Shown piece by piece: positions 225 through 62,348 of a stretch of DNA of 64,000 nt. Both the position numbers and the translations under genes were made by a program. The notes under the pieces are model-generated. The model worked only from the letters and a program-made list of their open reading frames with translations, was not told the DNA's origin and did no database searches. The number at the start of each line of letters is the position of its first letter. Position 1 is the stretch's first letter. Origin of the DNA: Winogradskyella marincola (lineage in GTDB: Bacteria > Bacteroidota > Bacteroidia > Flavobacteriales > Flavobacteriaceae); the NCBI RefSeq assembly GCF_029624125.1, contig NZ_JARSBN010000005.1, positions 1 to 64,000 on the forward strand. The letters run 5' to 3'.

Positions 225-1076
225 ATGACAGAAGCAGAAGTTCAACAATATTTCAATTATCATAATTCCAATATGAAATCATTAAAAATTGGATATGATG
301 AAATACGCAGTCAGATTAAAGCACAATACAGAGCAGGAAATAAAAACGGACAACTTATTTACGGTTTACAAGAAAATGATAGCTTGAAAATAAAATATCG
401 TGAAAAAGAAAAAGCATTAAGTAGAATTCTTTCTGGGATTCAAGTTTCTTGGGCAGAAGAAAGCATTAAAAGGTTGCTCTATGAAAAGAATTTACTAACT
501 GACAATCAAAGAACTTACTTATTGGAAAGACCTGCTTTAGACCAAAGATGGTATAAAACTCTAAAAATTATTTTCTGCATAGCATATGATTTGGTTCCTT
601 CTAATGATGAAAACTGTGAGCAGGTTCGAATAAATAGAGAAAGGCAAAATTTAGGAGATGAATTGGTAGACCAATATTTCTCTCTTAAAAGAATAGTAAA
701 AGACCATCTCATTCCAAATTTCTCTATTAGAAATAAAGTTCAACACGGAGAATGGAATTTTGCATTTAAACCTAAATATTCTAAAGAGTTTAGTCAAGAG
801 TTAACTGACAAAATAAATAAAGAAAATATTATAACCACAACATCGAGATATACGATAGTAAATGCTTTATATCAAATGTTGGTGGATATGGGAAGGTTTA
901 AAAGCGATAGTTTTGCTTTGAACTCAATAACAACGCCATTTGAATATTTTTATAGTAAATATATGCGTAAAATTAATTTTGAGGTTAATAAAATTCGGAA
1001 TCCAGATTTAGAGAATTTTATAAATCAAATTGTAGAAAAGGAAATTAGAGGATTGCAATATAAAATGAACAAATAA
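225..1076 (+). CDS. Cassette A: hypothetical protein with HEPN-like Rx4H motif
   Basis: A soluble 283-residue protein with no signal peptide or membrane segment. I do not recognise a named family over the full length. Around residues 168-175 it reads SIRNKVQHGEW. R-N-K-V-Q-H has the Rx4H spacing of HEPN-domain RNases, and the helical, charged context fits HEPN, but this is motif-level evidence only. The gene starts at ATG after an A-rich leader and stops 5 nt before the attC-like site S1. It is the leftmost cassette visible. Its left boundary cannot be placed. If HEPN is right, a toxin or defence role is possible (inference). Confidence 0.75.
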   Translation: MTEAEVQQYFNYHNSNMKSLKIGYDEIRSQIKAQYRAGNKNGQLIYGLQENDSLKIKYREKEKALSRILSGIQVSWAEESIKRLLYEKNLLTDNQRTYLLERPALDQRWYKTLKIIFCIAYDLVPSNDENCEQVRINRERQNLGDELVDQYFSLKRIVKDHLIPNFSIRNKVQHGEWNFAFKPKYSKEFSQELTDKINKENIITTTSRYTIVNALYQMLVDMGRFKSDSFALNSITTPFEYFYSKYMRKINFEVNKIRNPDLENFINQIVEKEIRGLQYKMNK

Positions 1077-1080
1077 AAAC

Positions 1081-1219
1081 TGCACACAACAATGTATAAC
1101 CGCAATTACGGCGGATTCGACTACGTCCGAATCCACTCGGAATTGCTAACGTCAGTTCTTAACCGAAAATTATTAACTTTAATCCCGTAACTGACGGTTA
1201 TACGAAACCGTTAGCCACA
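1081..1219 (+). repeat. attC-like site S1 (class I)
   Basis: The left arm TGCACACAAC closes cassette A. The right arm GTTAGCCACA opens cassette B. L boxes GTATAACCG and CGGTTATAC pair across the site, and the inner hairpins GGATTCG/CGAATCC and GTCAG/CTGAC follow. The class I core recurs at S3, S5, S6, S8, S11, S13 and S15. Confidence 0.85.
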
Positions 1220-1224
1220 ATTAA

Positions 1225-2226
1225 ATGACCGACCCAAAACCAAATAATAAATGGAAAAAAGGATTTCTTAAAACAGGACTTCCATTAGAATATGTCACTT
1301 CAAATATTCTAAATAAACTTGGTCATTTAATTTTTGGAGAGTATCCATATATAAGACCTGATGAGAGAAGAGAACTAAAAGAGTTTTCAGTTGATTTAAG
1401 AACATATAAGACTTTAGACAATAGTAATGACGAAAGACTAATTGTCTTATCAATGTTAATCGAATGTAAATATCGTCAACAAGGTACTTCGTGGATATTT
1501 TCGCCATTCCCAAGTGAAATGATTCCTCTTGGAATAATGAATTCTACAGAAGACATCGTTCCTGTAAGAATAGAAAATGAAAATGTCTTAAAGTTTGAAA
1601 AAGGCATTGGTTACTGTATTAGCGGAGTTGAATTATCAGCAGATGGAAACGGTAATACAAACGGAGTAAAACACGGAATATTTCAACTTAGGTTTGCAAT
1701 GCCAGAGTTTGTAAAAAATGACTACGTAAGTGGACTTGAACGCACTTATTATGACGGTAGATTTATAGATTTATCTTGTGCAATTTTAGTTACCACAGCA
1801 GATATAAGAGTTATAAAGCCAAACAAATCTTTAGAAGATTTTACTTCTGCAAATGAATTAGATGATGTAACTGAAATTAAAGAAGCAATTATAGTAAATG
1901 AACGACCAGGTCCTCAATTACAAGAGTTTGCGGATAAATTAGGTAATGAACTTATAAAAGAACACCCTGAACTTGAAAAACGTCTATTAGATATTGACAA
2001 AGTACTAATCGGCAAAGAATGGGAAAACAGATATGCACCAGATTTAGATACTATTAAAAGAAGTATTGGTTATAGTGCTGAGAGAATTTTAATAATAAAC
2101 CATAAGTATTTAGACAAAACCATAAAAAATTTAGAAACGGCTTTGCAAAAAGATATTAAAATGGAAAAAGTTTATGGTAAAGTTTTAGAAACAAATAATG
2201 GGTTTGAAATTAAACCAATTGATTAA
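1225..2226 (+). CDS. Cassette B: hypothetical, possible PD-(D/E)XK nuclease fold
   Basis: A 333-residue soluble protein whose ATG lies 14 nt after the cassette boundary, leaving no room for its own promoter. Residues about 45-85 contain an acidic strand (FSVDLRTYK) and then IECKYR, the D...E-x-K spacing of PD-(D/E)XK nucleases. A lysine-rich C-terminal half follows, with a short hydrophobic strand near 'ILIINHKY'. I do not recognise the family. A restriction-like or DNA-repair nuclease is an inference from the motif alone. S2 begins 10 nt past its stop. Together with the HEPN-like cassette A it hints at defence cargo. Confidence 0.75.
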   Translation: MTDPKPNNKWKKGFLKTGLPLEYVTSNILNKLGHLIFGEYPYIRPDERRELKEFSVDLRTYKTLDNSNDERLIVLSMLIECKYRQQGTSWIFSPFPSEMIPLGIMNSTEDIVPVRIENENVLKFEKGIGYCISGVELSADGNGNTNGVKHGIFQLRFAMPEFVKNDYVSGLERTYYDGRFIDLSCAILVTTADIRVIKPNKSLEDFTSANELDDVTEIKEAIIVNERPGPQLQEFADKLGNELIKEHPELEKRLLDIDKVLIGKEWENRYAPDLDTIKRSIGYSAERILIINHKYLDKTIKNLETALQKDIKMEKVYGKVLETNNGFEIKPID

Positions 2227-2235
2227 AAAAATAAC

Positions 2236-2374
2236 TGTGGCTAACAACGGCTATAGTTCATTACGGCTGAAATTCCTAATCGGAATTTCATTGCAATTCA
2301 CTATCTTTCGGCTACTGCGGAAAGAATCCTGCGGATTTTTCCGCAACGTATCATAGCCAAACACGTTGTACACA
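2236..2374 (+). repeat. attC-like site S2 (class II)
   Basis: The left arm TGTGGCTAAC is the perfect complement of the cassette B start (1210-1219). The right arm GTTGTACACA opens cassette C. L boxes GGCTAT and ATAGCC pair. Inner stem-loops are GAAATTCC/GGAATTTC and GCGGAAA with TTTCCGC. The class II core is shared with S4, S7, S9, S12 and T1. Confidence 0.85.
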
Positions 2375-2401
2375 ATATAACCACTCAATCCCATTTAGAA
2401 T

Positions 2402-2806
2402 TTGACTCACCAAAAAGTAAATCGATTTTTAATACCTATTGCGGTAATCGTTTTAATATTTTCTATTTTCAAAACGATTAAGAATGACAAAAAAGAGGAA
2501 CAACTGAAATTAGAAAATAATTATGTCATTGGAGAAATTACCGACCATAAAGTAACAGGTATAGCTGAAACCTATTATATCTATTATAAATATAACGTTG
2601 AGGGAACTGAATACTCTAAATCTGTAAATTATGGTTTTAAATATTCGGATTGCGAAAGGACAAGAAATTGCATCGGAATTAAGCATCCTGTATATTATGA
2701 CATAGAAAATCCGAATAATGCATTTATGGACTTTAATTCAACGGAACTAGACCTAAAAAAACTGGACATTCAAAAAAAGAGGTTTAAAGAACATATTGAC
2801 AATTAA
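2402..2806 (+). CDS. Cassette C: single-pass membrane protein
   Basis: A 134-residue protein that appears to start at TTG, because no in-frame ATG precedes the conserved-looking N-terminus. Residues about 8-25 form one transmembrane helix, followed by a basic/acidic linker. The beta-rich extracytoplasmic domain (residues about 40-120) resembles DUF3592-type proteins (Y..Y.Y.V.G..Y), but that family call is tentative. Two cysteines (near 'DCERTRNC') could form a disulfide. The cassette boundary is 36 nt upstream and S3 starts 17 nt downstream. Confidence 0.7.
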   Translation: MTHQKVNRFLIPIAVIVLIFSIFKTIKNDKKEEQLKLENNYVIGEITDHKVTGIAETYYIYYKYNVEGTEYSKSVNYGFKYSDCERTRNCIGIKHPVYYDIENPNNAFMDFNSTELDLKKLDIQKKRFKEHIDN

Positions 2807-2822
2807 AAAAGGAATAAAATAC

Positions 2823-2961
2823 TGTGTACAACAATGTATAACCTCAATTACGGCGGATTCGACTACGTCCGAATCCACTCGGAATTGCTAACGTCAGTGA
2901 TTAACCGAAAATTATTAACTTTAAAACCGTAACTGACGGTTATACGAGACCGTTACCCAAC
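2823..2961 (+). repeat. attC-like site S3 (class I)
   Basis: The left arm TGTGTACAAC is the perfect complement of the cassette C start (2365-2374). The right arm GTTACCCAAC opens cassette D. The class I core has one change next to the L box (ACCTCAATT for ACCGCAATT). Confidence 0.85.
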
Positions 2962-3013
2962 ATTTGACAAAAATCACGGAATCGAACCAAAAACAATATT
3001 GGAACATAAACAA

Positions 3014-3463
3014 ATGAATATAAGTTTTGACCTTGACAGCACATTGATTCCAAACGGAACGGAGTTTGAAACTGAAAGTAGAAGCGGAATTGCAAAACTG
3101 TTCGGAATTGAGGAAATACGAAAAGGAACGTCTGAATTGATTTTGGACTTGCAAAATAAGGGACATAAAATTCATATTTACACGACATCATTTCGGAGCA
3201 AAAGAAAAATAAGACGGACTTTAAAATATTACGGAATAAAAGTCAACCGAATTGTAAACGAAAAAGAAAATCGGAAAATTTTAAAATCTCGAAATATTAA
3301 CTCATCGAAATTTCCGCCAGCATTTGATTTTGATTTACATATTGACGATTTAAAAGGTGTTGGAATTGAAAGCGAAAGATTTAATTTTAAAGTAATTATT
3401 GTTGAACCGACTGATAAGAATTGGATTGAAAAAATTATAAACGGAATAAAAAACGTTGGGTAA
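3014..3463 (+). CDS. Cassette D: HAD-superfamily-like hydrolase
   Basis: The N-terminus NISFDLDSTLIPNG carries the HAD motif I (DxDxT, here DLDST) at residues 5-9. 'HIYTTSFRSK' fits motif II (hydrophobic strand + T/S). The basic stretch near 'RKILKSR' could give the motif III lysine, and 'DLHIDDLKG' looks like motif IV (DD). At 149 residues it is a minimal HAD core, possibly a polynucleotide or nucleotide phosphatase (inference). I chose the ATG here over a TTG 15 nt upstream. Its TAA stop lies inside the left arm of S4. Arginine codons CGG/CGA are commoner than in the chromosomal genes, which supports foreign origin. Confidence 0.75.
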   Translation: MNISFDLDSTLIPNGTEFETESRSGIAKLFGIEEIRKGTSELILDLQNKGHKIHIYTTSFRSKRKIRRTLKYYGIKVNRIVNEKENRKILKSRNINSSKFPPAFDFDLHIDDLKGVGIESERFNFKVIIVEPTDKNWIEKIINGIKNVG

Positions 3464-3591
3464 CAACGTGTATAGCTCATTGCGTTGAATTCCGATTAGG
3501 AATTCAACGCAATTTTGTTATCTTTCGGCTACGGCGGAAAGAATCCTGCGGATTTTTCCGCAACGAGCCATACACAAAACCGTTGTGCATA
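3455..3591 (+). repeat. attC-like site S4 (class II)
   Basis: The left arm GTTGGGTAAC is the perfect complement of the cassette D start (2952-2961) and contains the stop codon of gene D. The right arm GTTGTGCATA opens cassette E. The inner stem GTTGAATTCC/GGAATTCAAC is perfect. Confidence 0.85.
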
Positions 3592-3622
3592 ATGTCCCAA
3601 AACCGTAAACTGAATTAAAATT

Positions 3623-4105
3623 TTGAAGAAAAAAGAAATATTTTGGCTAATTGGAACAATCCTTTTTGTGATTGTTTTCTTTTTTGGACCTTCTGGATTT
3701 AGAAGTTTTGACTTGACTGGAGATACGGACATAAATGTACACGACACCTATTATGTGATTCCGACAATTCATCTATTTATTTTAATCAATTCGCTGATTT
3801 TTTTCGGCGTTTACCTAATCCGAATGTTACGTCGGAATTTTAAAAACTTGACCGCAAATCTGATTTTTATGATTTCGGACATAACTCTGATTTTAATTTT
3901 TACATTTCTAATTTCATTAGTAAATTCTATCCGAGAAATTCCAAGTTCGACTGAATATCCACCTTTGAGTGGCGGAATTGTGGAAAATGCTGGAAATGGA
4001 TGGAATAATGCTTTTTATATTTTATTCATCATCCAACTAATTTTAATAATTCTGCTAACAATAAGCGGAATAAAAACCGGACTTAATTACAGACGGAATG
4101 AATAA
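3623..4105 (+). CDS. Cassette E: multi-pass membrane protein
   Basis: A 160-residue protein with four likely transmembrane helices (residues about 7-22, 48-66, 78-98 and 130-150). A short polar loop after helix 1 reads DLTGDTDINVHDTYYV and resembles the extracytoplasmic segment of small flavobacterial membrane proteins. The start is TTG; no in-frame ATG is available near the cassette start 40 nt upstream. The function is unknown. CGG/CGA arginine codons and the tight S5 junction (8 nt after the stop) mark it as cassette cargo. Confidence 0.7.
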   Translation: MKKKEIFWLIGTILFVIVFFFGPSGFRSFDLTGDTDINVHDTYYVIPTIHLFILINSLIFFGVYLIRMLRRNFKNLTANLIFMISDITLILIFTFLISLVNSIREIPSSTEYPPLSGGIVENAGNGWNNAFYILFIIQLILIILLTISGIKTGLNYRRNE

Positions 4106-4112
4106 AAAACAC

Positions 4113-4249
4113 TATGCACAACAATGTATAACCGCAATTACGGCGGATTCGACTACGTCTGAATCCAGCGCGAATTGCTAAAACCTGTGCTTAATTCTAA
4201 CGCTACCAACTAAATACCGTAACTTCGATTATACTAACCGTTGTGTGCA
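4113..4249 (+). repeat. attC-like site S5 (class I, divergent)
   Basis: The left arm TATGCACAAC is the perfect complement of the cassette E start (3582-3591). The right arm GTTGTGTGCA opens cassette F. The right half is diverged from other class I sites (CGATTATAC replaces the CGGTTATAC box). Confidence 0.8.
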
Positions 4250-4258
4250 ATACCCAAA

Positions 4259-5005
4259 ATGACCGAGAGATTAAAAAATAACATTGAGAAATTGTATGAG
4301 ACTTTTGAGAAGTATCATAGTAATTCTGCAATGAATGGAAGTCCGAATTATGATGACTTGGACAAGTGGAATAAGGAATTATTTTCAAAACCATTGCGAG
4401 AATTAGATCAAGATGATTTATCTCTTTACACAGGAAAAGCAATGACAACTTGGGGAAATGCAAACGACTATAAACATTTTCTTCCTCGAATTTTTGAGTT
4501 AACGGCTGAATTAAGAACACCTTACGAAATTTGGATTGCATTTGACAAACTTACTCTTGCGGAATTCCAAAATTGGGAAGAAGAAGAGCAAAAAGTAATT
4601 CAAGAATTTATGATTGCACTTTGGGAAAGTATTGTAAATGACAACAGCCGGAAAGCAGAATTTGAGTTTAAAGATTACTTTTCTGCTATTGCTCATTTTT
4701 ACCCAAAATTCTCTGATTTACTTGACGTCTGGACTGAATCGGAATCAAAAGCTGGAATAAAGCATTTAGCGGAATTTATAATTGAGGAACAAACGACACT
4801 TTTTGACAGAAAAAAAATCAGCGGATTTCAAGACCAAAAACAAAACGCGGAGGAATTATTAAATTGGATTTTGTCAAATAAAACTCTTAACAAAATTCAA
4901 CAGAAATATTTTGAATTTGAAACAGAAAGTTTTGCTGAGAAAGTTTCTTGGGCTGAACAAATAATAACAAATGAAAGAAAAAGTACTGCACACAACAATG
5001 TATAA
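4259..5005 (+). CDS. Cassette F: hypothetical acidic protein ending inside attC
   Basis: A 248-residue soluble, helix-rich protein with many Trp/Glu residues and no signal or membrane segment. I do not recognise its family. Its start (ATG, MTERLKNN) lies 18 nt after the cassette boundary. A TTG exactly at the boundary is in frame but less likely. The last seven residues (STAHNNV) and the stop are encoded by the left arm and L box of S6. The reading frame therefore depends on the recombination site, and the C-terminus would change if the cassette were joined to a site with another arm. Confidence 0.75.
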   Translation: MTERLKNNIEKLYETFEKYHSNSAMNGSPNYDDLDKWNKELFSKPLRELDQDDLSLYTGKAMTTWGNANDYKHFLPRIFELTAELRTPYEIWIAFDKLTLAEFQNWEEEEQKVIQEFMIALWESIVNDNSRKAEFEFKDYFSAIAHFYPKFSDLLDVWTESESKAGIKHLAEFIIEEQTTLFDRKKISGFQDQKQNAEELLNWILSNKTLNKIQQKYFEFETESFAEKVSWAEQIITNERKSTAHNNV

Positions 5006-5125
5006 CCGCAATTACGGCGGATTCGACTACGTCCGAATCCACTCGGAATTGCTAACGTCAGTGCTTAACCGAAAATTATTAACTTTAATCCCGTAACTGA
5101 CGGTTATACGAGACCGTTACAAACA
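4987..5125 (+). repeat. attC-like site S6 (class I)
   Basis: The left arm TGCACACAAC is the perfect complement of the cassette F start (4240-4249) and is coding for gene F. The right arm GTTACAAACA opens cassette G. S1 has the same left arm sequence. Confidence 0.85.
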
Positions 5126-5146
5126 ATTTAAACAAAACTTTACGAA

Positions 5147-5575
5147 ATGAAAAAACTGAACTTACTACTTGGAATTCTAATTGGACTAGCAATTTTATCT
5201 TGCTCATCTAATGATAATGATTCAAGCCCAAATGAACCTACAATACTTGGAGAATGGATTTTAGTTAATCAAATATATGATGGACAAAATGAAAATCTTT
5301 CAGATTGCGAATTACAAGAAACTTTGACTTTCAATTCAAATGGAACTTTAATTTCGTATTACACTGATAATGAGCCTTGTGAATTTTTTACAGAAACTCA
5401 ACAATATGAATTAAATGGAACGGAATTAAAAATTCTTTTCGGACAAAATTCAGATTTTAGATTTAATATTTTAACTCTAACCGCAACTGAATTAAGTATT
5501 GAAAACTTCTATAGAGACGGAGAAACTCTTGATACAAATAATCGAACTACTTATGAATACGAAAAAGTAGAATAA
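5147..5575 (+). CDS. Cassette G: lipocalin-like lipoprotein
   Basis: A 142-residue lipoprotein. The signal peptide MKKLNLLLGILIGLAILSC ends in a lipobox, with the lipidated Cys at residue 19. The mature part 'ILGEWILVNQI...TLTFNSNGTLISYY...YELNGTELKI' has the W...F..dG...Y pattern of lipocalin-like domains common in Bacteroidota. It is probably anchored in the outer membrane; no ligand is known. The start is ATG about 30 nt after the boundary, and S7 begins 5 nt past the stop. Confidence 0.85.
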   Translation: MKKLNLLLGILIGLAILSCSSNDNDSSPNEPTILGEWILVNQIYDGQNENLSDCELQETLTFNSNGTLISYYTDNEPCEFFTETQQYELNGTELKILFGQNSDFRFNILTLTATELSIENFYRDGETLDTNNRTTYEYEKVE

Positions 5576-5579
5576 AAAC

Positions 5580-5714
5580 TGTTTGTAACAACGTATATAG
5601 CTCATTGCGGCTGAATTCCTAATCGGTATTCATTGCAATTTGCTATCTTTCGGCTACGGCGGAAAATCCTTACGAATTTCCCGCAACGAGCCATACACAA
5701 AACCGTTGGCAGTA
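5580..5714 (+). repeat. attC-like site S7 (class II)
   Basis: The left arm TGTTTGTAAC is the perfect complement of the cassette G start (5116-5125). The right arm GTTGGCAGTA opens cassette H. Confidence 0.85.
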
Positions 5715-5725
5715 ATTCAAAACCT

Positions 5726-6046
5726 ATGAAATTAAGTAATTCATTTAGCGGAGCATTAAGAACATTTGCCTATTTCATTGCAAGCGGAACTCACTATCAA
5801 TTAAACGGAATTGAATATTTGGACTTGTTTGGCGAAGAACCAAGTGCAATCGAACAAGCTTTTGCAATATTTACGAACGTAATTGAATTGGATGAAAATG
5901 GAAACGTGCTGAATGCGAAATATGCTGAAAAAAGAGCTGTTGACTATATCCGTTCATACTGTGACCCTGAATTTGAAGTCAAACCACCTTATGAGGATTG
6001 GGAAATTGAATTACATTCTGCACCACCTTTAAAAGACAAAAAATAA
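5726..6046 (+). CDS. Cassette H, gene 1: small hypothetical protein
   Basis: A 106-residue soluble protein beginning MKLSNSFSGALRTFAYF, at ATG 21 nt after the cassette boundary. An open frame extends upstream through S7, but that part is att-site sequence and is rejected as coding. The helical N-terminal half and acidic C-terminus give no clue to function. Its TAA is followed with no gap by the ATG of the next gene, so the two are translationally coupled and probably partners. Confidence 0.75.
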   Translation: MKLSNSFSGALRTFAYFIASGTHYQLNGIEYLDLFGEEPSAIEQAFAIFTNVIELDENGNVLNAKYAEKRAVDYIRSYCDPEFEVKPPYEDWEIELHSAPPLKDKK

Positions 6047-6376
6047 ATGACTGATCAGTTAGCAGAAAGAATTGTGGACTCGATTCTTGAATGTCGAGAA
6101 AGAGGTGTCAAAGATGACGAATTGATTGTCAAAGAATTAATGAGCAAATTTGAAGGTAATGAAGAGGATTTTTATTGGGCAATCGAAATGACGAATACAG
6201 GTGGCTTTAGAGCGTCAATAATGAGTTCGGGTAACACTTATCCTAAATCAAACATAAGGATTGAGGATAATCCGATTTTAAAAATTGCATTAAAAAAATG
6301 CTGGATTGATTTAAAAGGAGAAGAACATTTTATTAAAAATTATGAAAAAAAGAAAAAATGGTGGAAAATATTTTAA
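6047..6376 (+). CDS. Cassette H, gene 2: small hypothetical protein
   Basis: A 109-residue soluble protein starting directly after the stop of gene 1 in the same cassette. It is helical and has a lysine-rich tail (YEKKKKWWKIF). I do not recognise its family. A coupled pair of small genes in one cassette is the usual layout of toxin-antitoxin or effector-immunity pairs, but nothing in either sequence proves that. Confidence 0.7.
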   Translation: MTDQLAERIVDSILECRERGVKDDELIVKELMSKFEGNEEDFYWAIEMTNTGGFRASIMSSGNTYPKSNIRIEDNPILKIALKKCWIDLKGEEHFIKNYEKKKKWWKIF

Positions 6377-6381
6377 AAAAC

Positions 6382-6520
6382 TACTGCCAACAATGTATAA
6401 CCGCAATTACGGCGGATTCGACTGCGTCCGAATCCACTCGGAATTGCTAACGCCAGTGCTTAACCGAAAATTATTAACTTTAAAACCGTAACTGACGGTT
6501 ATACGAGACCGTTGGCAAAC
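6382..6520 (+). repeat. attC-like site S8 (class I)
   Basis: The left arm TACTGCCAAC is the perfect complement of the cassette H start (5705-5714). The right arm GTTGGCAAAC opens cassette I. Confidence 0.85.
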
Positions 6521-6569
6521 ATTTGACGCAACCAATGGAATAAAATCACATCTAATAGGAAAAGAAATT

Positions 6570-7106
6570 ATGAAAAAATACATTTTACTGTTTATATCTT
6601 TAAACTTATTGGTAAGCTGTTCTCAAAATGAAATAGATATTGATAATAATTATTCATTTGATGGTAGAGGCGGAATAAAGTGTGAAGTTGATGGAGTTTT
6701 GCTAAAACCAAGCACAGCAATAATTTACGGAAATGCTACTCTGAATTCTGATACTACAACGGATGGAATTCCTTTTATGTCTTTGAGTTTTCATAACAAT
6801 AATCAAAGTACTGGACTAGGATTTCAATATATAAGAATATTCTTAAATGATGTTGACTATCGAGATGACTTAACTGGATTAATTTTTGAATTAGGAAGTG
6901 AAGAAAATAATGAAAGTTATGGAGAATATGGTGTTGGAGAGTTTGGCGATGGAGCCACAAATGAAAATTATGTAGGAGAGCTTAAAGTTATTTTCCACGA
7001 TGTGGATGAAAGAATATTAGGTGGAACATTTTGGTATGATGTAGAAAATTCAAATGGAGAAATTCGTGAAATTAGAAATGGTGAATTTGATATGAAAATT
7101 TGGTAA
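6570..7106 (+). CDS. Cassette I: DUF6252-like lipoprotein (paralogue of cassette N)
   Basis: A 178-residue lipoprotein with signal and lipobox LLVSC (Cys 16). The mature part carries DGRGGIKCEVDG (residues about 30-41), GGTFWYDV and a C-terminal REIRNGEFDM. The same blocks occur in cassette N, so the two are paralogues. The fold looks beta-rich, as in DUF6252-type Bacteroidota lipoproteins, but the family name is tentative. The leader is long (58 nt) and its first 23 bases nearly match those of cassette N, so the whole cassette was duplicated. Function unknown. Confidence 0.8.
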   Translation: MKKYILLFISLNLLVSCSQNEIDIDNNYSFDGRGGIKCEVDGVLLKPSTAIIYGNATLNSDTTTDGIPFMSLSFHNNNQSTGLGFQYIRIFLNDVDYRDDLTGLIFELGSEENNESYGEYGVGEFGDGATNENYVGELKVIFHDVDERILGGTFWYDVENSNGEIREIRNGEFDMKIW

Positions 7107-7117
7107 TTAAAAAAACG

Positions 7118-7253
7118 ATTTGCCAACACCGTTTATAGCTCATTGCGGCTGAAATTCCTCTCGGAATTTCAATCTTATTCGCTATCTTCGTTTTAAGTCG
7201 GAAAATCATAGCTGATTTCCCGCAACGAGCCATACACAAACACGTTGGCAACA
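7118..7253 (+). repeat. attC-like site S9 (class II)
   Basis: The left arm ATTTGCCAAC matches the complement of the cassette I start at 9/10 positions. The right arm GTTGGCAACA opens cassette J. The central stem-loop is altered relative to other class II sites. Confidence 0.8.
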
Positions 7254-7255
7254 AT

Positions 7256-8017
7256 ATGAATAAAACGATAATCATACTACTTTTAATATTAGTCTATTCT
7301 TGTAAAAACGAGAATAAAGAAAATATAAAATCGACTGAAATCAAGACTAAAGAAATCAAGGTAACTGAAAGGCTTGAGCAAACTGAACAGACCGAATTTA
7401 AAAAAGAAGAAAATACTGAAATCAAAGAAAGAAAAGAAAATATAGATTCACTGAAAGTTCAACAAGAATTCAACTTTGAATACATAAAATCTAGAACTAC
7501 TGAATTACCTAAAGAAATTAATGTTTCATATAATATATCAAACAAGAATAAAAACTTTATACCCAAAGATTTTTTAATAAAATATATTAGTCCTAAAAAA
7601 GTTGACATTGGATTTCCTGAATCTTTGCCAGCAGATTACCCTGAATCTTATTCATTCAGAGCATCAAAAGAATATGAAGATTTTAACTTATTCACATTTT
7701 CATACGACGATGAAAGTTGCTGCACAACATTATATGCTGCGACAACCAAAAAAGACACGCTTGATATTATAAACATTGGAGTAATTGCATACTCTGGAGG
7801 AGATGCAGGTTGGGTTGGAGAAAAATATGGGAAATGGATAAATGATTATTCCATATCAAATGTAGAACCTTCAGAATATGATGAACCAGCACCTGAAGAG
7901 CCTACAGAAACTGAAATAGATACAATTTGGTCTGAAATTCAGATAAGTAAAAAAGGAATTTTAAAATATATTGAACATCACAAAGTTAAATATATTGGAA
8001 ATAAACAAGTTGAATAG
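7256..8017 (+). CDS. Cassette J: hypothetical lipoprotein
   Basis: A 253-residue lipoprotein (lipobox VYSC, Cys 16) with a long Lys/Glu-rich linker (residues about 18-70) before a globular domain containing a CC pair ('DESCCTTLYA') and GGDAGWVGEKYG. I do not recognise the family. The ATG lies 12 nt after the cassette boundary, so there is no space for a promoter within the cassette. S10 begins 5 nt after the stop. Confidence 0.75.
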   Translation: MNKTIIILLLILVYSCKNENKENIKSTEIKTKEIKVTERLEQTEQTEFKKEENTEIKERKENIDSLKVQQEFNFEYIKSRTTELPKEINVSYNISNKNKNFIPKDFLIKYISPKKVDIGFPESLPADYPESYSFRASKEYEDFNLFTFSYDDESCCTTLYAATTKKDTLDIINIGVIAYSGGDAGWVGEKYGKWINDYSISNVEPSEYDEPAPEEPTETEIDTIWSEIQISKKGILKYIEHHKVKYIGNKQVE

Positions 8018-8021
8018 ATAC

Positions 8022-8158
8022 TGTAGCCAACACCGTGTATAATTAATGGCTAGTTCGGGCTTACTTACGAAAATCCTCGCGGATTTTCTATTCGGTTTGT
8101 ATTTGCTAAATTAGTGGCTTAAACACGCCACTAATCATACACAAAACCGTTGGCCACA
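8022..8158 (+). repeat. attC-like site S10 (class III)
   Basis: The left arm TGTAGCCAAC matches the complement of the cassette J start at 9/10. The right arm GTTGGCCACA opens cassette K. The core differs from classes I and II: GTGTAT/ATACAC outer boxes, AATCCTCGCGGATT and AGTGGC...GCCACT hairpins. Confidence 0.8.
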
Positions 8159-8171
8159 AGCTCAAGAAACA

Positions 8172-8876
8172 TTGAAATACTACATTGGAGCATATTATTT
8201 AATTAAACTTCGTGATTCCAATTTTGGAACTTACGAAGGAAAAAAATTGCATACTTGTAGTACTTGTATTAACGATTCTTTTTTTGATGCTTGGTCAATT
8301 TCGTGGGCAGAAGATGGAAAAAATATTAATGCAGAAACCAAATCGAACTTTAATCTTAATGAAAAGCTGATTAAAGAAATACAGAATTGGACGGACAAAA
8401 AAATGGAGGAAAATAAAATCGGATGGATTTGCACATTTGCCGATTTAGAAACCTTAACCGAATATAAAAGTTCGTTTTTTCCAAAAGCAGAAAGTGAAAT
8501 ATTGAGTATTAACTTTCCCGAATCAGAAAGAACCGAATTATTAAATTTATTCAATCCTGAAAAGACAAGTTTTGGCGAAATCGGACTTTTTATAAATTTA
8601 AAAAAAGGAATAACAGAAAACAAAGACGAACTAACTTTAGGCTACGACTTAATCGGAATAGAAGATAGTAGTGAATTTCATAGTTTTCATTGTCACGATT
8701 TAGCAAATGACTTAATCGAAAAGTTCGGAATAGAAATAAACGAATTCGGACTAATTAGTGAAAATGATAAATGGACTGAAATGGTGGAATATATGAACGA
8801 TGAGAAAAACGGATTTGAATCTTCACCTTGGTTTTATGTCAAAGTAAATAAAGTAATAGAAAAATCCAGTGGCTAA
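8172..8876 (+). CDS. Cassette K: hypothetical protein
   Basis: A 234-residue soluble protein from a TTG start 22 nt after the cassette boundary (no in-frame ATG nearby). A CSTC pair lies near residue 27 and an FHSFHCHD cluster near residue 172; these could bind metal but are not a motif I know. Its TAA stop falls inside the left arm of S11. Function and family unknown. Confidence 0.7.
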   Translation: MKYYIGAYYLIKLRDSNFGTYEGKKLHTCSTCINDSFFDAWSISWAEDGKNINAETKSNFNLNEKLIKEIQNWTDKKMEENKIGWICTFADLETLTEYKSSFFPKAESEILSINFPESERTELLNLFNPEKTSFGEIGLFINLKKGITENKDELTLGYDLIGIEDSSEFHSFHCHDLANDLIEKFGIEINEFGLISENDKWTEMVEYMNDEKNGFESSPWFYVKVNKVIEKSSG

Positions 8877-9007
8877 CAATGTATGACTGCAATTACGGCG
8901 GATTCGACTACGTCCGAATCCACTCGGAATTGCTAACGTCTGTGCTTAACTGAAAATTAATGCTAATTTAACCCGTAACTGACGGTTATACGAGACCGTT
9001 GTATGTA
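8868..9007 (+). repeat. attC-like site S11 (class I)
   Basis: The left arm AGTGGCTAAC matches the complement of the cassette K start at 8/10, the weakest match among the intact cassettes. It contains the stop of gene K. The right arm GTTGTATGTA opens cassette L. Confidence 0.8.
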
Positions 9008-9023
9008 ATGTCACCCAAAACGT

Positions 9024-9626
9024 ATGAATAATATACTCTACAAAAAAATAATTTTTCTGATTATAATAATATCTACAAATTATTTAACTGCACAAGAATC
9101 ATCTAACTTCAATCATTCAGTTTTAACAAAAGTTGGTTACTTAAATAAAGATAAAGTGCTTGATTCAATTACTGTAAAACAGGATACAGTAAATAAATTT
9201 AGACCTTATAGATTAGAAATCTATCTAAGTAAAAGAAAAGTCGGTAAAATTTTATTTACATCAACGGATAAAGCAATTACCCCTGAGTACTTTCAAGGTT
9301 CTAATGGAATGGAAAAAGAAAAAAGTTTTTCAGGCATTGAAATTATAAATCATATTTTAACTATAAAACATGATTACGAAAATGAACATAAAGAACATTC
9401 GTTTCTACTTCGAGGTAATAAGTTCAAACTAATTAAATACTATTCTATAAAAACAGATAATTATGGAAAAATTCACTATGAAACGATAAACTTTAATACT
9501 CTAATCAGAAAAACGAAATCCGTCAGTAGTTCAAACAATCGTATACTTGATGAAAAAGAATATATATTAAGAATGAATTCAACATATTTAAAGGATTTTA
9601 ATATGGTGTCTGAAATTCATCATTAA
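9024..9626 (+). CDS. Cassette L: secreted hypothetical protein
   Basis: A 200-residue protein with a cleavable signal peptide (IIFLIIIISTNYLTAQ, cleavage after about residue 23). The mature beta-rich domain includes VGYLNKDKVLDSITV, a pattern resembling FG-GAP/VCBS-type strands ('G.lN.DkvlDsI'). It is likely periplasmic. No named family is assigned. The start is ATG 25 nt after the boundary; S12 begins 5 nt past the stop. Confidence 0.75.
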   Translation: MNNILYKKIIFLIIIISTNYLTAQESSNFNHSVLTKVGYLNKDKVLDSITVKQDTVNKFRPYRLEIYLSKRKVGKILFTSTDKAITPEYFQGSNGMEKEKSFSGIEIINHILTIKHDYENEHKEHSFLLRGNKFKLIKYYSIKTDNYGKIHYETINFNTLIRKTKSVSSSNNRILDEKEYILRMNSTYLKDFNMVSEIHH

Positions 9627-9630
9627 ACAC

Positions 9631-9771
9631 TACATACAACAACGGCTATAGTTCATTACGGATAAAATTTCTAATCGGAATTTCAAGCCTTTTTGCTAAA
9701 TTTATGGTTACGTCGGAATGATACTCGCGTACCATTCCGTAACGAAACCATAGCCAAAACCGTTGGCAAAC
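9631..9771 (+). repeat. attC-like site S12 (class II)
   Basis: The left arm TACATACAAC is the perfect complement of the cassette L start (8998-9007). The right arm GTTGGCAAAC opens cassette M. The centre has diverged, with its own GGAATG...CATTCC hairpin. Confidence 0.85.
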
Positions 9772-9773
9772 AT

Positions 9774-10310
9774 ATGAAAAGACACCTGCAAATAACAATC
9801 ATAATTCTGACTTTAATTGTTTCTTGTAAACAAAAAGAAGTTAAAAATGTAGAATCAAGCCAACAAAGACCTACAACCGAATTAAACGCTAAAACTGAAC
9901 AAAGTGTTCAGGAAAATGAAAAAACAAAAAAAGAAATAACCGAAAATAATTTTGAGTCTAATTCATTAGAATTTGACAAAAATTTAATTGAACAACTACA
10001 TAAAAATCTAAAATCAAATTTTGAGATTGACTTTGAGTTAAACCATTTGAATAATGCTCTAAATGGAATCAAACTATCCGAATTAAAAAGCGGAAAAGTA
10101 TTTGAAAAAGAAATGTTATTTGAAGATTTTGAATGCGAATGTTTAGACAAAATAACTATTTCTCATTCCGAAAACAGGTACTTACTCGACATATATGAAG
10201 AATTTTACGAAGAAGAATTAGATTGGTGTCCTGAAAGTAGCTACAGATATTCATTCAAGATTGCTGATAACAAAATATCTGACTTGAAATTAGATTTTAT
10301 GGCTGGATAA
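9774..10310 (+). CDS. Cassette M: hypothetical lipoprotein
   Basis: A 178-residue lipoprotein starting at ATG 11 nt after the cassette boundary. An in-frame extension upstream is att-site sequence and was rejected. The lipobox is TLIVSC (Cys 18), followed by a low-complexity Glu/Lys/Gln linker. The globular domain has ECECLD and DWCPESSY, which offer potential disulfides. Probably surface or periplasmic; function unknown. Confidence 0.75.
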   Translation: MKRHLQITIIILTLIVSCKQKEVKNVESSQQRPTTELNAKTEQSVQENEKTKKEITENNFESNSLEFDKNLIEQLHKNLKSNFEIDFELNHLNNALNGIKLSELKSGKVFEKEMLFEDFECECLDKITISHSENRYLLDIYEEFYEEELDWCPESSYRYSFKIADNKISDLKLDFMAG

Positions 10311-10318
10311 TGAAATAC

Positions 10319-10458
10319 GTTTGCCAACAATGTATAACCGCAATTACGGCGGATTCGACTACGTCCGAATCCACACGGAATTGCTAACGTCAGTGCTTAA
10401 CCGAAAAATTTGCGTACTTTAACCCGTAACTTACGCTTACACAAAACCGTTGGCAAAC
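10319..10458 (+). repeat. attC-like site S13 (class I)
   Basis: The left arm GTTTGCCAAC is the perfect complement of the cassette M start (9762-9771). The right arm GTTGGCAAAC opens cassette N. Since left and right arms are themselves complementary here, this site is a perfect outer hairpin. Confidence 0.85.
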
Positions 10459-10513
10459 ATTTAACGCAACCTTTCGATAGAAACTACATCTTTTAATTAT
10501 AAACTGAATTATT

Positions 10514-11053
10514 ATGAAAACGAAATTAATTCTTATACTTTGTTTAATTGGACTAACTAATTGCGAAGTATCTTCAGTAGATACAGATGATCCCAATTAC
10601 GTTTTCGATGGAAGAGGCGGAATAAAATGTAAAGTTGATGGAAAATTAATTAAACCAAAAGTAAGTTTTAGTGGAACTGGACTAGCAGCTGATGTTGAAT
10701 TTATTTCTTGGAACAACGAAGAATATTTGAGCCTCAGTTTTTTAAATGGTGGTGAATCACCTGACTTTATTTCTCAATCAGTAAGAATGAAAATTATTGA
10801 TGTGGTTCCTGAATCTATTCAAGTTGGTAATATCTATACTCTCGAGAATGAAGACAATTGGAACTATGGAAAGTATAGTTATGGCGGAATAGATTTCAAC
10901 TACTCTACAAATGACCTAAATACAGGCGAATTGGAGGTAGTTTTTCACGATTTAGAGAATAGAATATTAGGTGGAACTTTTCATTACAATGCAATAGATG
11001 AAAATGGTATTATTGTGGAGATAAGAGAAGGTGAATTTGATATGAAATATTAA
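10514..11053 (+). CDS. Cassette N: DUF6252-like lipoprotein (paralogue of cassette I)
   Basis: A 179-residue paralogue of the cassette I product. The lipobox region GLTNC puts the lipidated Cys at 16. DGRGGIKCKVDGKLIKP, GGTFHYN and VEIREGEFDMK align with cassette I, while the central part is diverged. The 64-nt leader begins with nearly the same bases as the cassette I leader. It may be an independently acquired allele or a duplicated cassette. Function unknown. Confidence 0.8.
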   Translation: MKTKLILILCLIGLTNCEVSSVDTDDPNYVFDGRGGIKCKVDGKLIKPKVSFSGTGLAADVEFISWNNEEYLSLSFLNGGESPDFISQSVRMKIIDVVPESIQVGNIYTLENEDNWNYGKYSYGGIDFNYSTNDLNTGELEVVFHDLENRILGGTFHYNAIDENGIIVEIREGEFDMKY

Positions 11054-11063
11054 ATAAAAAACA

Positions 11064-11151
11064 GTTTGCCAACAACGTGTAAACATAATAACGGCAGAAT
11101 TTCCTATCGGAAATTCTTACATATTTACTTAATATGGTTTCGTTGGCTGTA
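11064..11151 (+). repeat. attC-like site S14 (short form)
   Basis: The left arm GTTTGCCAAC is the perfect complement of the cassette N start. The right arm GTTGGCTGTA opens cassette O. At about 88 bp it is the shortest intact site, with one central hairpin GAATTTCC/GGAAATTC. Confidence 0.8.
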
Positions 11152-11173
11152 ATATCCTAAAACCTCGAACTAA

Positions 11174-11750
11174 ATGAAAATTATTTATTTTTTTATCGTC
11201 TTTTTTATTTCAACAAGTCTTTTTTCTCAAATAAGAGAAGAACAAACAATTGAATTAACTGTTAAAATTGGGAAATCTAGTTTTCGTTATTATGTATCTG
11301 GGTCATCCGTCTGGTTCATTAAGTTCTATAAATTTTGGTGTTAGTGGAGATTACTATTTGAATAAAACCTGGAGTATCCAAACAGGGCTGTTATATCAGA
11401 AAATGGGAGGAACAACATATAATAGCAACTATGAAGTAGACTATATAAACATACCTTTTAATATGAATTGGCATTTTGGTAAAACGAAAAAATGGAATTT
11501 GAATTTTGGAATCATTCAAAGCTTTAGAACTAATAACTCTTCTAGTCAAAACATATTAGGTGCAACAATTAAAAATACACAAACTGCAATAAATTTAGGG
11601 TTTGGCTATAGAATCAAAATAAATGATAAAATTGGAATTCTATTAGATTATCAGTTTTTATCTGGAATGAACAATATAGATAAAGATGAAATTTATAGAA
11701 TTACAAATAAAGGTAGTAATATAAATTTAGGAACAGTATTAAAAATATGA
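11174..11750 (+). pseudogene. Cassette O: outer-membrane beta-barrel protein, frameshifted
   Basis: From ATG, a signal peptide (IYFFIVFFISTSLFSQ) and REEQTIELTVKIGKSS are read in one frame, which stops at 11336-11338. The rest of the barrel (NFGVSGDYYLNKTWSIQTG ... NLGFGYRIKIND, ending in a barrel-like strand) is in the +1 frame, which has a stop at 11256-11258. The frames must therefore change between about 11259 and 11335. Joined, they give a roughly 190-residue PorT/OmpW-sized barrel. It is a pseudogene, or a sequencing indel. Its left arm/start match is 9/10. Confidence 0.7.
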
Positions 11751-11762
11751 CAAATAAAATAC

Positions 11763-11958
11763 TACTGCCAACAATGTATAACTGCAATTACGGCAGATTC
11801 GATTATCCTTCTACTTACGTTGTAAGGTATTCTTCATTCAAAATATATTTTGAATGAAGATAATAATCAGAATTAGCTACGCTGAACCTAAAGGTTTGCT
11901 AACGTCTGTGCTAAACGGAAAAATAGTAACTGAACATTATACAAGACCGTTCTCTGTC
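11763..11958 (+). repeat. attC-like site S15 (class I with extra palindrome)
   Basis: The left arm TACTGCCAAC matches the complement of the cassette O start at 9/10. The right arm is GTTCTCTGTC. About 55 bp more than other class I sites, owing to an insertion that includes a perfect 30-bp palindrome at 11831-11860. No later site closes the following unit, so this is the last site of the array. Confidence 0.75.
11831..11860. repeat. Perfect 30-bp palindrome inside S15
   Basis: TCTTCATTCAAAATA followed by its exact reverse complement TATTTTGAATGAAGA, with no loop. It sits in the middle of an att-like site, as an extra cruciform/hairpin not present in the other copies. Confidence 0.9.
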
Positions 11959-30328: not shown

Positions 30329-32506
30329 ATGAAAAATTTATACTTTTTAATTTTTTGTGTAGCCTCTATATTTTATGGATTTGCACAATGCAATATAGAG
30401 TCTTCTCTTAATGAAAACTTTGATGACTGGAGTGGCGAAATAGACCAATGCTGGTCTATAATTAGCACAGGTGCTTTTGTGTATGAAGATACAGGCGAGA
30501 TTGTATTTTACAGTTTCAATTCGCCTAATACACCAACCATGTTAGCGACTCCTGAAATCGCTTCTGGAACTTATAACTTACAGTTTGACACAACTAGTGT
30601 TGCTGGTGGTGGTTTACAAATTGAAGTTGGTACTGTTACAGACACAAGCAATAGTAGCACCTATACTACAATTGGGTCTCCATTTACTGTTATGAATACC
30701 ACAACACACAATGTAGAAATAACCATAAATACAGGAGAATATTTAGTGTTTAATGCTGTTTTACCTGGCAACCATAATGCTATATCATTAGACAATGTAG
30801 TTTTAAGTGCTGTACCAACAGACTTATTTTCAGAAATCTCAACAACGACAAGCGATTATTGGTATGCTTCATCAGATTGGGCAGACATAAACAATGATGG
30901 TAACTTAGATTTAGTAATTTCTGGTGGTATAGACACAGATAACGACGAATATGCAGATAGCAGTAAGATTGATTTTTACGAAAATGTAAATGGTACTTTA
31001 ACTCTTACCAGTCAAGCAAATGTGGCCGATTTACACTTAGGAAGTGTTAAATATTTAGATTACGATAATGATGGAGATATCGACTTGGTAACTTCTGGCC
31101 AAAACTACAATGACATATATACATTTTACCTTACAGTTTATGAAAATGAAAATGGTACATTTTCGGTTTCTCAACAGTTAGAAGGTGTTGTTTATAGCTC
31201 TATAGAAACAGGAGATTATGATAATGATGGAGACTTAGATTTATTAGTTTCCGGAGCTTTTCAAGATGCTGGTGGAGCTTCTTTATATACAAGAATTTAC
31301 GAAAACGTTAATGGTACTTTCTCAGATGCTAATGCTGGATTATCTGCTGTACAGAACGGAAATGCTGTTTTTGCGGATGTAGACAACGACTCTGATTTAG
31401 ACATCCTAATCACTGGTTACGACATTAATGGCGATAACTTTTCTGCTTTATACACCAATGACAATGGCTCTTATACATTAGCTACTCTGCCGTTTACAAC
31501 TGCAGAAAGCTGGTTAGCTTTAGGTGATTATGATAACGATGGTGATCTAGATTTTGCCTATACAGGTTATGATGACAACTACGATTATGTAACAAAAATC
31601 TATAACAATGATGGTAATGGTACGTTTATAGACTCTGGATTTTCATTAGAAGGTGTAGGTAATTTTACAGGTAACAATCCAATTGTTTGGGGAGATTATG
31701 ACAATGATGGTGATCTAGATTTGGTTTTTGCTGGTACAGATAACAATTATGATGATAAAACATATTTATACACTAATAATCAAACATCTTTTGATCTTGC
31801 AAGTGAAGGCTTAATTAACCTTGGTTCTTATGCCAATCTAAAGTTTATAGATTTAGATGGAGATAACGATTTAGATTTTGCAATTTCTGGTGGTTCAGAT
31901 GTAGATGGCTATGTTGGAAGAACACGCTTTTTTGAAAACAATACTACAGTTGTCAACTCTGCACCAAATGCGCCTTCTAACCTTGTAAGCTCAGCAAACT
32001 CAAATAATTCTATGACCTTTAGTTGGGATGCTGCAACGGACGATTTTACTCCTAGTAATGGGCTTTTTTATATGTTAACTGTTGGTACAACTCAAGGTGG
32101 TAATGAAATTGCGTCTTATCCTGTTTATGGAACGACGTGGACCATAGAAAACCTTGGAAATGCGACAAACTATTTTTGGTCTGTTAGTGCTGTTGACACT
32201 TCTTTTGTAGAATCTACTGAAGCTACAAGTGAAACTTTGAGCATCAATAATTTTGAAACTAATACTTTTAGTATTTTCCCTAATCCTTCAAACGATGGAA
32301 TCATTGATCTGAAGTTCTCTGATGAGACATTATATTCTGAAAAGAACCAAATCAATGTATATTCTACAACAGGTCAAAAAGTATATAGCACTAGCATTAG
32401 TACTAATACAAGTCAAATTAACTTGTCTGAACTAAATTCTGGTATTTATATCATTGAGATTACTTCAGGTAATAACAGCTTTACAAAAAAACTTGTATTA
32501 AACTAA
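30329..32506 (+). CDS. FG-GAP/VCBS-repeat protein with T9SS sorting domain
   Basis: A 725-residue secreted protein with a signal peptide (IFCVASIFYGFAQ). A jelly-roll-like adhesion segment (residues about 20-165) is followed by at least six FG-GAP/VCBS repeats with the calcium-binding pattern DYDNDGDLDL, a fibronectin-III-like domain (about 545-635), and a type A T9SS C-terminal domain (NTFSIFPNPSNDG ... GIYIIEITSG ... KKLVLN). It is exported by T9SS and either released or anchored on the surface. Adhesion or polymer binding is likely. It follows the iron block but is separated by a terminator. Confidence 0.9.
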   Translation: MKNLYFLIFCVASIFYGFAQCNIESSLNENFDDWSGEIDQCWSIISTGAFVYEDTGEIVFYSFNSPNTPTMLATPEIASGTYNLQFDTTSVAGGGLQIEVGTVTDTSNSSTYTTIGSPFTVMNTTTHNVEITINTGEYLVFNAVLPGNHNAISLDNVVLSAVPTDLFSEISTTTSDYWYASSDWADINNDGNLDLVISGGIDTDNDEYADSSKIDFYENVNGTLTLTSQANVADLHLGSVKYLDYDNDGDIDLVTSGQNYNDIYTFYLTVYENENGTFSVSQQLEGVVYSSIETGDYDNDGDLDLLVSGAFQDAGGASLYTRIYENVNGTFSDANAGLSAVQNGNAVFADVDNDSDLDILITGYDINGDNFSALYTNDNGSYTLATLPFTTAESWLALGDYDNDGDLDFAYTGYDDNYDYVTKIYNNDGNGTFIDSGFSLEGVGNFTGNNPIVWGDYDNDGDLDLVFAGTDNNYDDKTYLYTNNQTSFDLASEGLINLGSYANLKFIDLDGDNDLDFAISGGSDVDGYVGRTRFFENNTTVVNSAPNAPSNLVSSANSNNSMTFSWDAATDDFTPSNGLFYMLTVGTTQGGNEIASYPVYGTTWTIENLGNATNYFWSVSAVDTSFVESTEATSETLSINNFETNTFSIFPNPSNDGIIDLKFSDETLYSEKNQINVYSTTGQKVYSTSISTNTSQINLSELNSGIYIIEITSGNNSFTKKLVLN

Positions 32507-32522
32507 AAACATTTTCTTGAAA

Positions 32523-32621
32523 ATGATTTCTATTAAACATATTGCCAAACGCATTGTTGTCCTATTTTCCTGCTTAATAGTAACATCTATACTAACTTTA
32601 ATTTTAGTATTTGTAGCGTGA
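32523..32621 (+). CDS. Possible 32-residue membrane peptide
   Basis: ATG to TGA encodes MISIKHIAKRIVVLFSCLIV plus a further twelve hydrophobic residues: a short basic N-terminus and one helix. This is the usual design of small membrane proteins. It lies 16 nt after the T9SS gene stop. The coding evidence is weak; A+T-rich DNA gives such frames by chance. Confidence 0.35.
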   Translation: MISIKHIAKRIVVLFSCLIVTSILTLILVFVA

Positions 32622-32638
32622 AAATTCTATAGAAATCT

Positions 32639-61480: not shown

Positions 61481-61537
61481 TTTATGGTTATTGAGAAGAA
61501 GTACTATTATTTTTTTAAATTGTTCGTTATAAACGTA

Positions 61538-61580: not shown

Positions 61581-61599
61581 ATTTGAGAAAAACCGAAAA

Positions 61600-62043: not shown

Positions 62044-62047
62044 AGAA

Positions 62048-62266: not shown

Positions 62267-62348
62267 GATATAAAAATGGTTAAAAATGTAATCTCTGAAG
62301 ATAAACGGAAGAATTTTGAATTAATAAAAAGAAATCTAAAATAAAAAC

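Follow-up and report, generated by a model that had tools for sequence, protein, structure and literature searches.

The cassette array at the start of a Winogradskyella marincola contig is best read as belonging to a chromosomal type of integron, common in Flavobacteriaceae, whose integrase has no I2 insert

The stretch of DNA analysed here, called the window, comprises the first 64,000 nucleotides (nt) of contig NZ_JARSBN010000005.1 of Winogradskyella marincola (assembly GCF_029624125.1), which is contig C20 of the 24 contigs of this 3.52 Mb genome. Close to the contig start it carries an array of 15 hairpin sites resembling the attC sites of integrons. These attC-like sites lie between positions 1088 and 11949, all on the plus strand, and bound 14 complete cassettes, all of which carry plus-strand open reading frames (ORFs). 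The array continues past the contig start, and the ORF at 225-1076 (plus strand, 283 amino acids (aa), no Pfam match) is part of a 15th, incomplete cassette. The number, place and common strand of the sites had been proposed in an earlier note made from the letters of this DNA, and they are confirmed by the pairing of the key bases of the outer arms R'' and R', by a consensus site pattern and by chains of linked cassettes. The view that each gene fills its cassette holds for 13 of the 14 cassettes, in which the longest ORF takes up 0.77-1.01 of the cassette length; cassette 7 (0.48) departs from it, since it consists of two ORFs lying end to end. The genes are small, and for ten of 16 proteins of the window Pfam gives no match at E 0.01.

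In an integron, a cassette's terminal R'' pairs with its own initial R', which within an array sits in the previous site. This relation is found here. Over seven variable key bases, start (R') and own end (R'') are complementary at 152 of 161 positions in 23 cassettes, namely the 14 of the window and nine at the end of contig C10, the first of which is counted from the attI-like site described below. Permuting the cassette pairings gave a mean of 72 key matches and a maximum of 106 in 100,000 permutations, and within a single site R'' and R' agree at only 72 of 168 key bases. The pairing thus goes by cassette and not by site, the reverse of what ordinary repeats would show. Moreover, the chain of linked cassettes in the window reaches a length of 10 in sense orientation versus 2 in antisense and 1 on the reversed sequence. 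The consensus site pattern, which recovers 102 of 209 known sites, finds six of the 15 array sites and one further site at 62356, with no match in 100 shuffles of the window. A loose detector, the background of which amounts to up to five matches on the reversed window, reports about 70-80 sites in the fetched stretches of the source genome, in same-strand clusters located mostly at contig ends. In this genome, three or more array starts and three or more array ends lie at contig breaks, so that more than one candidate start exists for the window array. A search of the window against Rfam at gathering scores gave nothing, and blastn with one window attC gave no match in the phage and plasmid collections. 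A resemblance by eye to the 3' part of a tRNA at positions 100-190 was rejected, as ARAGORN finds no tRNA.

All sites of the array lie on the plus strand and occupy the following positions, with the AAC of R'' and the GTT of R' in brackets: site 1, identified like the others by its R''/R' keys, 1079-1219 (1088, 1210); site 2, 2234-2374 (2243, 2365); site 3, 2821-2961 (2830, 2952); site 4, 3453-3591 (3462, 3582); site 5, 4111-4249 (4120, 4240); site 6, 4985-5125 (4994, 5116); site 7, 5578-5714 (5587, 5705); site 8, 6380-6520 (6389, 6511); site 9, 7116-7253 (7125, 7244); site 10, 8020-8158 (8029, 8149); site 11, 8866-9007 (8875, 8998); site 12, 9629-9771 (9638, 9762); site 13, 10317-10458 (10326, 10449); site 14, a short form with 71 nt from AAC to GTT, 11062-11151 (11071, 11142); and site 15, a long form and the last of the array, 11761-11958 (11770, 11949). 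The cassette ORFs, likewise all on the plus strand, code mainly for proteins without a Pfam match: cassettes 1 (1225-2226, 333 aa), 4 (3623-4105, 160 aa), 5 (4259-5005, 248 aa from ATG, with the stop codon within the site), 9 (7256-8017, 253 aa), 10 (8172-8876, 234 aa, TTG start), 11 (9024-9626, 200 aa), 12 (9774-10310, 178 aa) and 13 (10514-11053, 179 aa). The ORF of cassette 8 (6570-7106) is partly similar to that of cassette 13 and has a weak BBP7 match under the cut-off, and that of cassette 3 (2999-3463) weakly resembles a HAD-like hydrolase (E 0.005, under the cut-off). Cassette 2 (2402-2806) encodes a DUF3592 protein, cassette 6 (5147-5575) a lipocalin-like protein (PF13648), cassette 14 (11268-11750) an outer-membrane beta-barrel domain (PF13505), and the two adjoining ORFs of cassette 7 (5726-6376) a DUF7677 protein and a protein of 109 aa.

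To describe the anatomy of the hairpin, 238 distinct sites were compared, 212 of which fit an ungapped stem frame of 16 bp with at least ten Watson-Crick pairs. Stem positions 3-8 are paired in 89-99% of these 212 sites, several of these positions showing two or three frequent pair types, and 95 different left arms occur; the stem itself is conserved by covariation. Furthermore, the stems carry polarised mismatches. In the gapped alignment a top-strand A.C mismatch is located at left-arm position 14 in 223 of 234 sites and at position 9 in 133 of 234, and in the ungapped frame in 150 and 142 of 212 sites, respectively. Over all stems there are 484 A.C or C.A mismatches versus 49 G.T or T.G, and 487 others. 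In viral contigs, which were not used to find the mark, position 14 shows it in 67 of 82 sites with a stem; the A of position 9 is part of the search pattern and was not counted there. Read by eye in distant families, the mark is kept in L132, L255, L261 and L262 and absent from the short sites of L117. On the bottom strand these A.C pairs become G.T wobbles. When both strands were folded, a check suggested in the earlier note, the bottom strand gave the more stable fold of the excised-form attC in 21 of 23 cases (the exceptions being W10 and C2), several of the differences being small; the z values of the single-strand folds are -2.8 (bottom) and -2.3 (top) for site 3 and -9.0 and -7.9 for site 4. 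The classical attC core motif is RYYYAAC/GTTRRRY, and a search for it in nine loci with a canonical integron integrase (IntI) returned only three weak sites, so that chain-based sites were used there instead; the classical sites of two Pseudoalteromonas integrons among them (L144 and L145) have left-arm bulges. Between positions 3 and 15, 139 of 236 stems of the present type have no bulge, in 88, eight of 14 window sites among them, the L' arm only carries an extra base, and nine have one on the R''-L'' arm. Hence the R''-L'' arm of 227 of 236 stems is free of an extrahelical base, that is, of an R''-L'' arm base without a partner on the other arm, as the term is used by Bouvier et al. (PMC2727003). 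According to the same paper, pairing of R often reaches 9-11 nt (PMC2727003), so that the pairing of about 10 bp seen here is not new.

No integrase was found in the window. The earlier note had spoken of an array without a visible integrase, which is right for the window and wrong for the genome: contig C10 codes for a tyrosine recombinase of 396 aa (C10:707355-708542), followed by an attI-like site and nine attC-like sites up to the contig end, an array of the same type as that of the window. The GTT of this attI-like site lies 28 nt past the stop codon of the recombinase gene, and six of its seven key bases pair with the end of the first cassette. Among 61 usable related loci, a key-paired GTT lies at most 65 nt from the recombinase stop in 27, versus a mean of 3.4 and a maximum of 8.1 in a cross-locus control. 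Judged by its sequence, the site beside the recombinase can be regarded as attI-like, as expected of an integron. Such sites are short and AT-rich, and by eye there are two types for two recombinase clades, one GATATAAC-like and the other palindromic. The two arrays lie on separate contigs of one genome. For the recombinases and the arrays that directly follow them, the tie is strong by linkage. Towards the other end of the window, downstream of a 714-aa ORF, an orphan attI-like site (61535-61585, plus strand) that by eye resembles the attI of the second recombinase clade begins a short array (61535-63154) with no adjoining recombinase. Its cassette is closed by an attC-like site at 62347-62487 (plus strand; R'' TGCATACAAC, R' GTTGTATGCA), and a short attC-like site follows at 63067-63154 (plus strand), the own R'' of which does not pair with the preceding R'. 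The recombinase that the source genome itself has on C10 falls into the other clade.

A profile search of the genome with TIGR02249 gave nothing above the cut-off of 265 bits. The C10 recombinase matches this profile in two pieces with 216.2 bits and four relatives with 196-204, compared to 404-506 for five IntIs and 169 for an XerD-type control. R232, K257, H321, R324, H347 and Y356, which we take to be the catalytic residues of a tyrosine recombinase, are invariant in 28 aligned members. Of 47 family rows, 46 were measured, and in every one of these the motif-to-HxxRH distance is 64-67; it is 106-107 in eight of nine IntI rows (87 in the ninth) and 71-73 in eight Xer rows. The recombinase is not an IntI, as it lacks the I2 insert of about 42 residues, scores below the TIGR02249 cut-off and stands outside the IntI clade; the search for a tyrosine recombinase with the IntI patch, to which the earlier note had pointed, thus came out negative. 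In a core tree of 51 rows IntI forms one clade (100/100), the 30 Bacteroidota rows fall together with 93/83 and IntI joins them with 87/58, neither of which is firm. The array-linked recombinases group apart from the source genome's own XerC/XerD. The C10 recombinase also passes NF040815 (222.1 bits, cut-off 220), which accepts an XerD-type protein as well (260.9 bits) and therefore does not define the group. A confident model of the whole protein (pLDDT 86.7) has XerA and IntI as nearest structures, and the closest solved catalytic cores are those of XerA-type recombinases (PDB 5hxy, 4a8e), from which the present proteins differ by their link to cassette arrays and, mostly, by an added N-terminal domain. 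This domain is present in 43 of 46 array-linked recombinases. Predicted alone from the relative L087 (pLDDT 84.6), it has the HARP domain of SMARCAL1 as top Foldseek match (probability 0.89, E 0.038), the HARP domain and the N-terminal part of XPB being the top matches at E-values that are not significant. A PDB profile points to HARP below significance, and the Pfam HARP family (PF07443) reaches at best 18.5 bits (cut-off 25), in one of 26 members. DUF5710 matches three of 26 members with a better E-value than HARP, and VIA prefers eIF1-like folds and XPB for the N-terminal domain, scoring eIF1 higher than HARP; with the full model, VIA returns recombinase folds throughout and is uninformative on this domain. 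We regard the predicted domain as weakly HARP-like and claim no HARP membership.

The recombinase and its arrays were then compared across relatives. At E 1e-60 the recombinase is matched in 78 of 149 genomes of the family, at 88 places. Flanks were fetched for 40 of these 88 places and for further members of the genus and the phylum, 80 loci being from named genomes; for the counts of chains, contig breaks, key-paired GTTs and stem bulges, L095 (which is the G145 genome) and L201 and L202 (which overlap L046 and L048) were left out, and duplicates between the locus sets were screened for these three only. Of the loci that extend 5 kb or more downstream, 74 in number, 46 have a chain of at least three cassettes after the recombinase in sense orientation, versus 0 of 74 in antisense and 1 of 74 on reversed sequence, and such a chain precedes the recombinase in none of 47 loci. 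Downstream chains are present in 43 of the 65 loci whose match takes in the N-terminal domain and in three of nine others, among which the N-terminal part is long in two, L117 and L132. A contig break within 400 nt downstream of the recombinase is seen in 20 of 122 loci, compared to two upstream, counting loci not trimmed there, an excess to be expected if assembly is hampered by arrays. Altogether, about two dozen genera of a single family contain I2-less recombinases with following arrays. The site pattern is found in 106 of the 149 family genomes with 1030 sites, the backward pattern having only two matches in the 149. Genomes with a recombinase match have on average 11.0 sites (78 genomes) versus 2.5 in those without (71 genomes; p 7e-8, kinship ignored). 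Within the genus, 20 of 60 genomes match the recombinase at E 1e-90, and within the phylum 92 of 296 do so at 1e-75, many of the matches being without the N-terminal domain. Outside the Flavobacteriaceae the signal of a motif-free detector was not separable from the control. A strict detector finds chains of three in three of the four f8 loci (L255, L261 and L262, not L256; sites read by eye). In the set of nine IntI loci, upstream antisense chains of three and four cassettes are seen in L144 and L145, respectively, i.e., the divergent layout, and L139 gives an upstream antisense chain of three, the sites of which look like chance.

Several single loci are of interest in their own right. The family recombinase of L083 lacks the N-terminal domain and has a four-cassette chain beginning about 8 kb downstream. 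A 683-aa family member of a distant Bacteroidota metagenome-assembled genome (L132:8693-10741) has a second SAM-like match and a five-cassette chain that keeps the marks. A cassette near the recombinase of L009 (14876-15475) codes for an AbiV-type HEPN protein, a phage-defence family. Matches H11-H13 to the recombinase (query cover 91-93%, N-terminal region included) are located on Chryseobacterium and Persicobacter plasmids and are possible mobile forms, and the viral contigs L275, L283, L284, L297, L299 and L317 carry two or three such attC-like sites each.

Whole cassettes have been exchanged between genomes in which their neighbours are unrelated. Comparison of 352 cassettes from 46 arrays gave 35 cross-genome pairs at least 70% alike, nine of which are the self-match of G145 and L095 and not exchange; as these two names denote one genome, pairs that involve either of them enter the count in duplicate. 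Between G101 and Winogradskyella ursingii one cassette is identical over 787 of 787 nt, as is its attC (115 of 115), the flanks being about 50% alike. A cassette of the source genome with a cation-efflux gene (PF01545) agrees at 819 of 850 positions with one in G145, a member of another genus, and has more distant matches in four other genomes. The identity of shared cassettes begins at one GTT and ends at the next. The same sites with other cassettes between them, which the earlier note had suggested to look for in related genomes, are thus present as single whole cassettes shared among unrelated neighbours.

Taken together, the arrays very probably represent a chromosomal integron system of Bacteroidota with a dedicated I2-less tyrosine recombinase, attC sites assigned cassette-wise and hairpin-based exchange, and the best reading of the data is an integron system, common in Flavobacteriaceae, the integrase of which has no I2. 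The window array would be a cassette store of this system, and the recombinase, with an XerA-like core and mostly an added N-terminal domain, is coded just upstream of the attI-like site on the strand of the cassettes. The mobile unit would be a cassette reaching from the GTT of R' to its own attC, in line with the unit anatomy seen in the arrays, and its excised circle would restore an attC with R''/R' pairing of about 10 bp. The recombinase, to which the linkage points as the enzyme, would join attC with attI or attC with attC at C|GTT or G|TT, and whole cassettes would be inserted, lost and, as the shared cassettes show, exchanged between genomes. Its substrate is most likely the bottom strand in folded form, on which the two polarised marks (bottom-strand G.T wobbles, top-strand A.C mismatches) would probably select the strand, as the extrahelical bases do in classical attC sites, and the HARP-like domain may, more speculatively, help to read the hairpin. 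Our confidence falls from the hairpin mechanism over the role of the marks to that of the N-terminal domain. The system shares with IntI integrons the tyrosine recombinase gene, the attI site, same-strand single-gene cassettes, the R''/R' pairing of the attC hairpin across the cassette, the GTT boundary and the exchange of whole cassettes. It differs from them by a recombinase without the I2 insert and outside the IntI clade, which mostly has an added N-terminal domain, by polarised mismatches in place of extra R''-L'' bases, and by recombinase and cassettes lying on the same strand, whereas they are divergent in the IntI loci L144 and L145. The earlier proposal of an integron-type cassette array with arms unlike those of classical attC is thereby supported.

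Four observations weigh against this interpretation. The top strands fold almost as well as the bottom strands in several sites, so that the folding check supports it in part; a few array-linked relatives lack the HARP-like N-terminal domain; the close relatives L046, L048 and L052 as well as most loci outside the Flavobacteriaceae have no downstream chain; and a pattern site occurs in 40 of the 71 genomes without a recombinase match. The first of these would fit a system with the same array and recombinase acting by double-strand recombination at short GTT/AAC cores, in which hairpin and marks are by-products or transcription terminators. XerA-type enzymes act on double-stranded DNA, and the catalytic core found here is closest to them and lacks the I2 insert. 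It is difficult to reconcile with this alternative that the long stems are conserved by covariation and bear polarised marks and that the long R''/R' pairing is only restored in the excised unit; moreover, a bottom-strand preference is published for a site of a Polaribacter phage, tested with IntI1 (PMC9892861). Double-strand recombination is thus considered unlikely. The last observation, together with the reported use of the same phage site by IntI1 (PMC9892861), would suit a cluster of attC sites lacking an integron integrase (CALIN), the cassettes being gathered by a canonical IntI located elsewhere or formerly present and the Bacteroidota recombinase being unrelated. The window segment alone does look like a CALIN, but a matching recombinase with attI-like site and array is present on a different contig of the genome, nothing in the genome exceeds the TIGR02249 cut-off, and the order of recombinase, attI-like site and array recurs in many loci, with the array upstream in none of 47; this explanation is very improbable. 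Even less credence is given to modules moved pdif-like by the host XerC/XerD, for which the XerA-like core and the short AT-rich attI-like sites could be cited. Such pdif modules have paired 28-bp dif-like sites, whereas each cassette here has one long 3' hairpin site with its own key, and the linked recombinases stand apart from the genome's XerC/XerD. Ordinary, immobile hairpin repeats dispersed between accessory genes, which the single occurrence of some sites might suggest and which the earlier note had considered with a fixed cassette order in relatives, are rejected as practically inconceivable, since the sites lie mostly in same-strand arrays, the cassettes of relatives differ, the keys follow cassettes and not sites, and the identity of shared cassettes is bounded by GTT.

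Going beyond the integron reading itself, the system might be a second integron class native to Bacteroidota, in which the strand would be chosen by polarised wobbles 5 nt apart instead of extrahelical bases of the classical arm and read by an I2-less recombinase, mostly with a HARP-like domain binding DNA structure; it would then represent either a sister lineage in which the state preceding IntI is kept or a separate origin of hairpin recombination. This proposal is tentative, and on balance we lean slightly against it; the extra L'-arm base in 88 of 236 stems lowers its chances. Integrons are defined by IntI, and according to the literature its I2 domain has not been identified in other proteins and makes room for the extrahelical bases (PMC4792948). 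Salinibacter ruber M1 is given as the complete integron of IntegronFinder 2.0 in Bacteroidetes proper (PMC9024848), Bacteroidota being merely listed among integron-bearing phyla in two further papers (PMC8618304, PMC9668308). A survey of tyrosine recombinases states that the insert is not fully conserved in an integron-like subgroup (PMC8138268), so that members of the present group may sit there unremarked. The Polaribacter phage P12002L is reported to have attC sites, of which attC2 recombined with IntI1 when the bottom strand was used, whereas the top strand gave no recombinants; attC1 is reported as unverified, and the phage's sites are called divergent (PMC9892861). Three sites of the present type are found in P12002L (L389) at 32492-32692, 39123-39242 and 39516-39707, all on one strand; as the paper's sites are divergent, the tested attC2 could not be matched to any of them. 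Some members bear the NCBI name 'site-specific tyrosine recombinase/integron integrase', taken from a model that is titled with both terms and also accepts an XerD-type protein; this is a label and not a described system. No description of such a system was met among the listed papers of the open-access literature without preprints, and papers outside of it may hold one.

With I2-less recombinases heading these arrays and sites that bear a different strand mark, it becomes possible to test directly how hairpin recombination arose and whether I2 is needed for it. Moreover, key pairing and marks together offer a simple test for annotation. Finally, the arrays constitute a cassette pool of mostly unknown genes, which searches for IntI or classical attC sites may miss.

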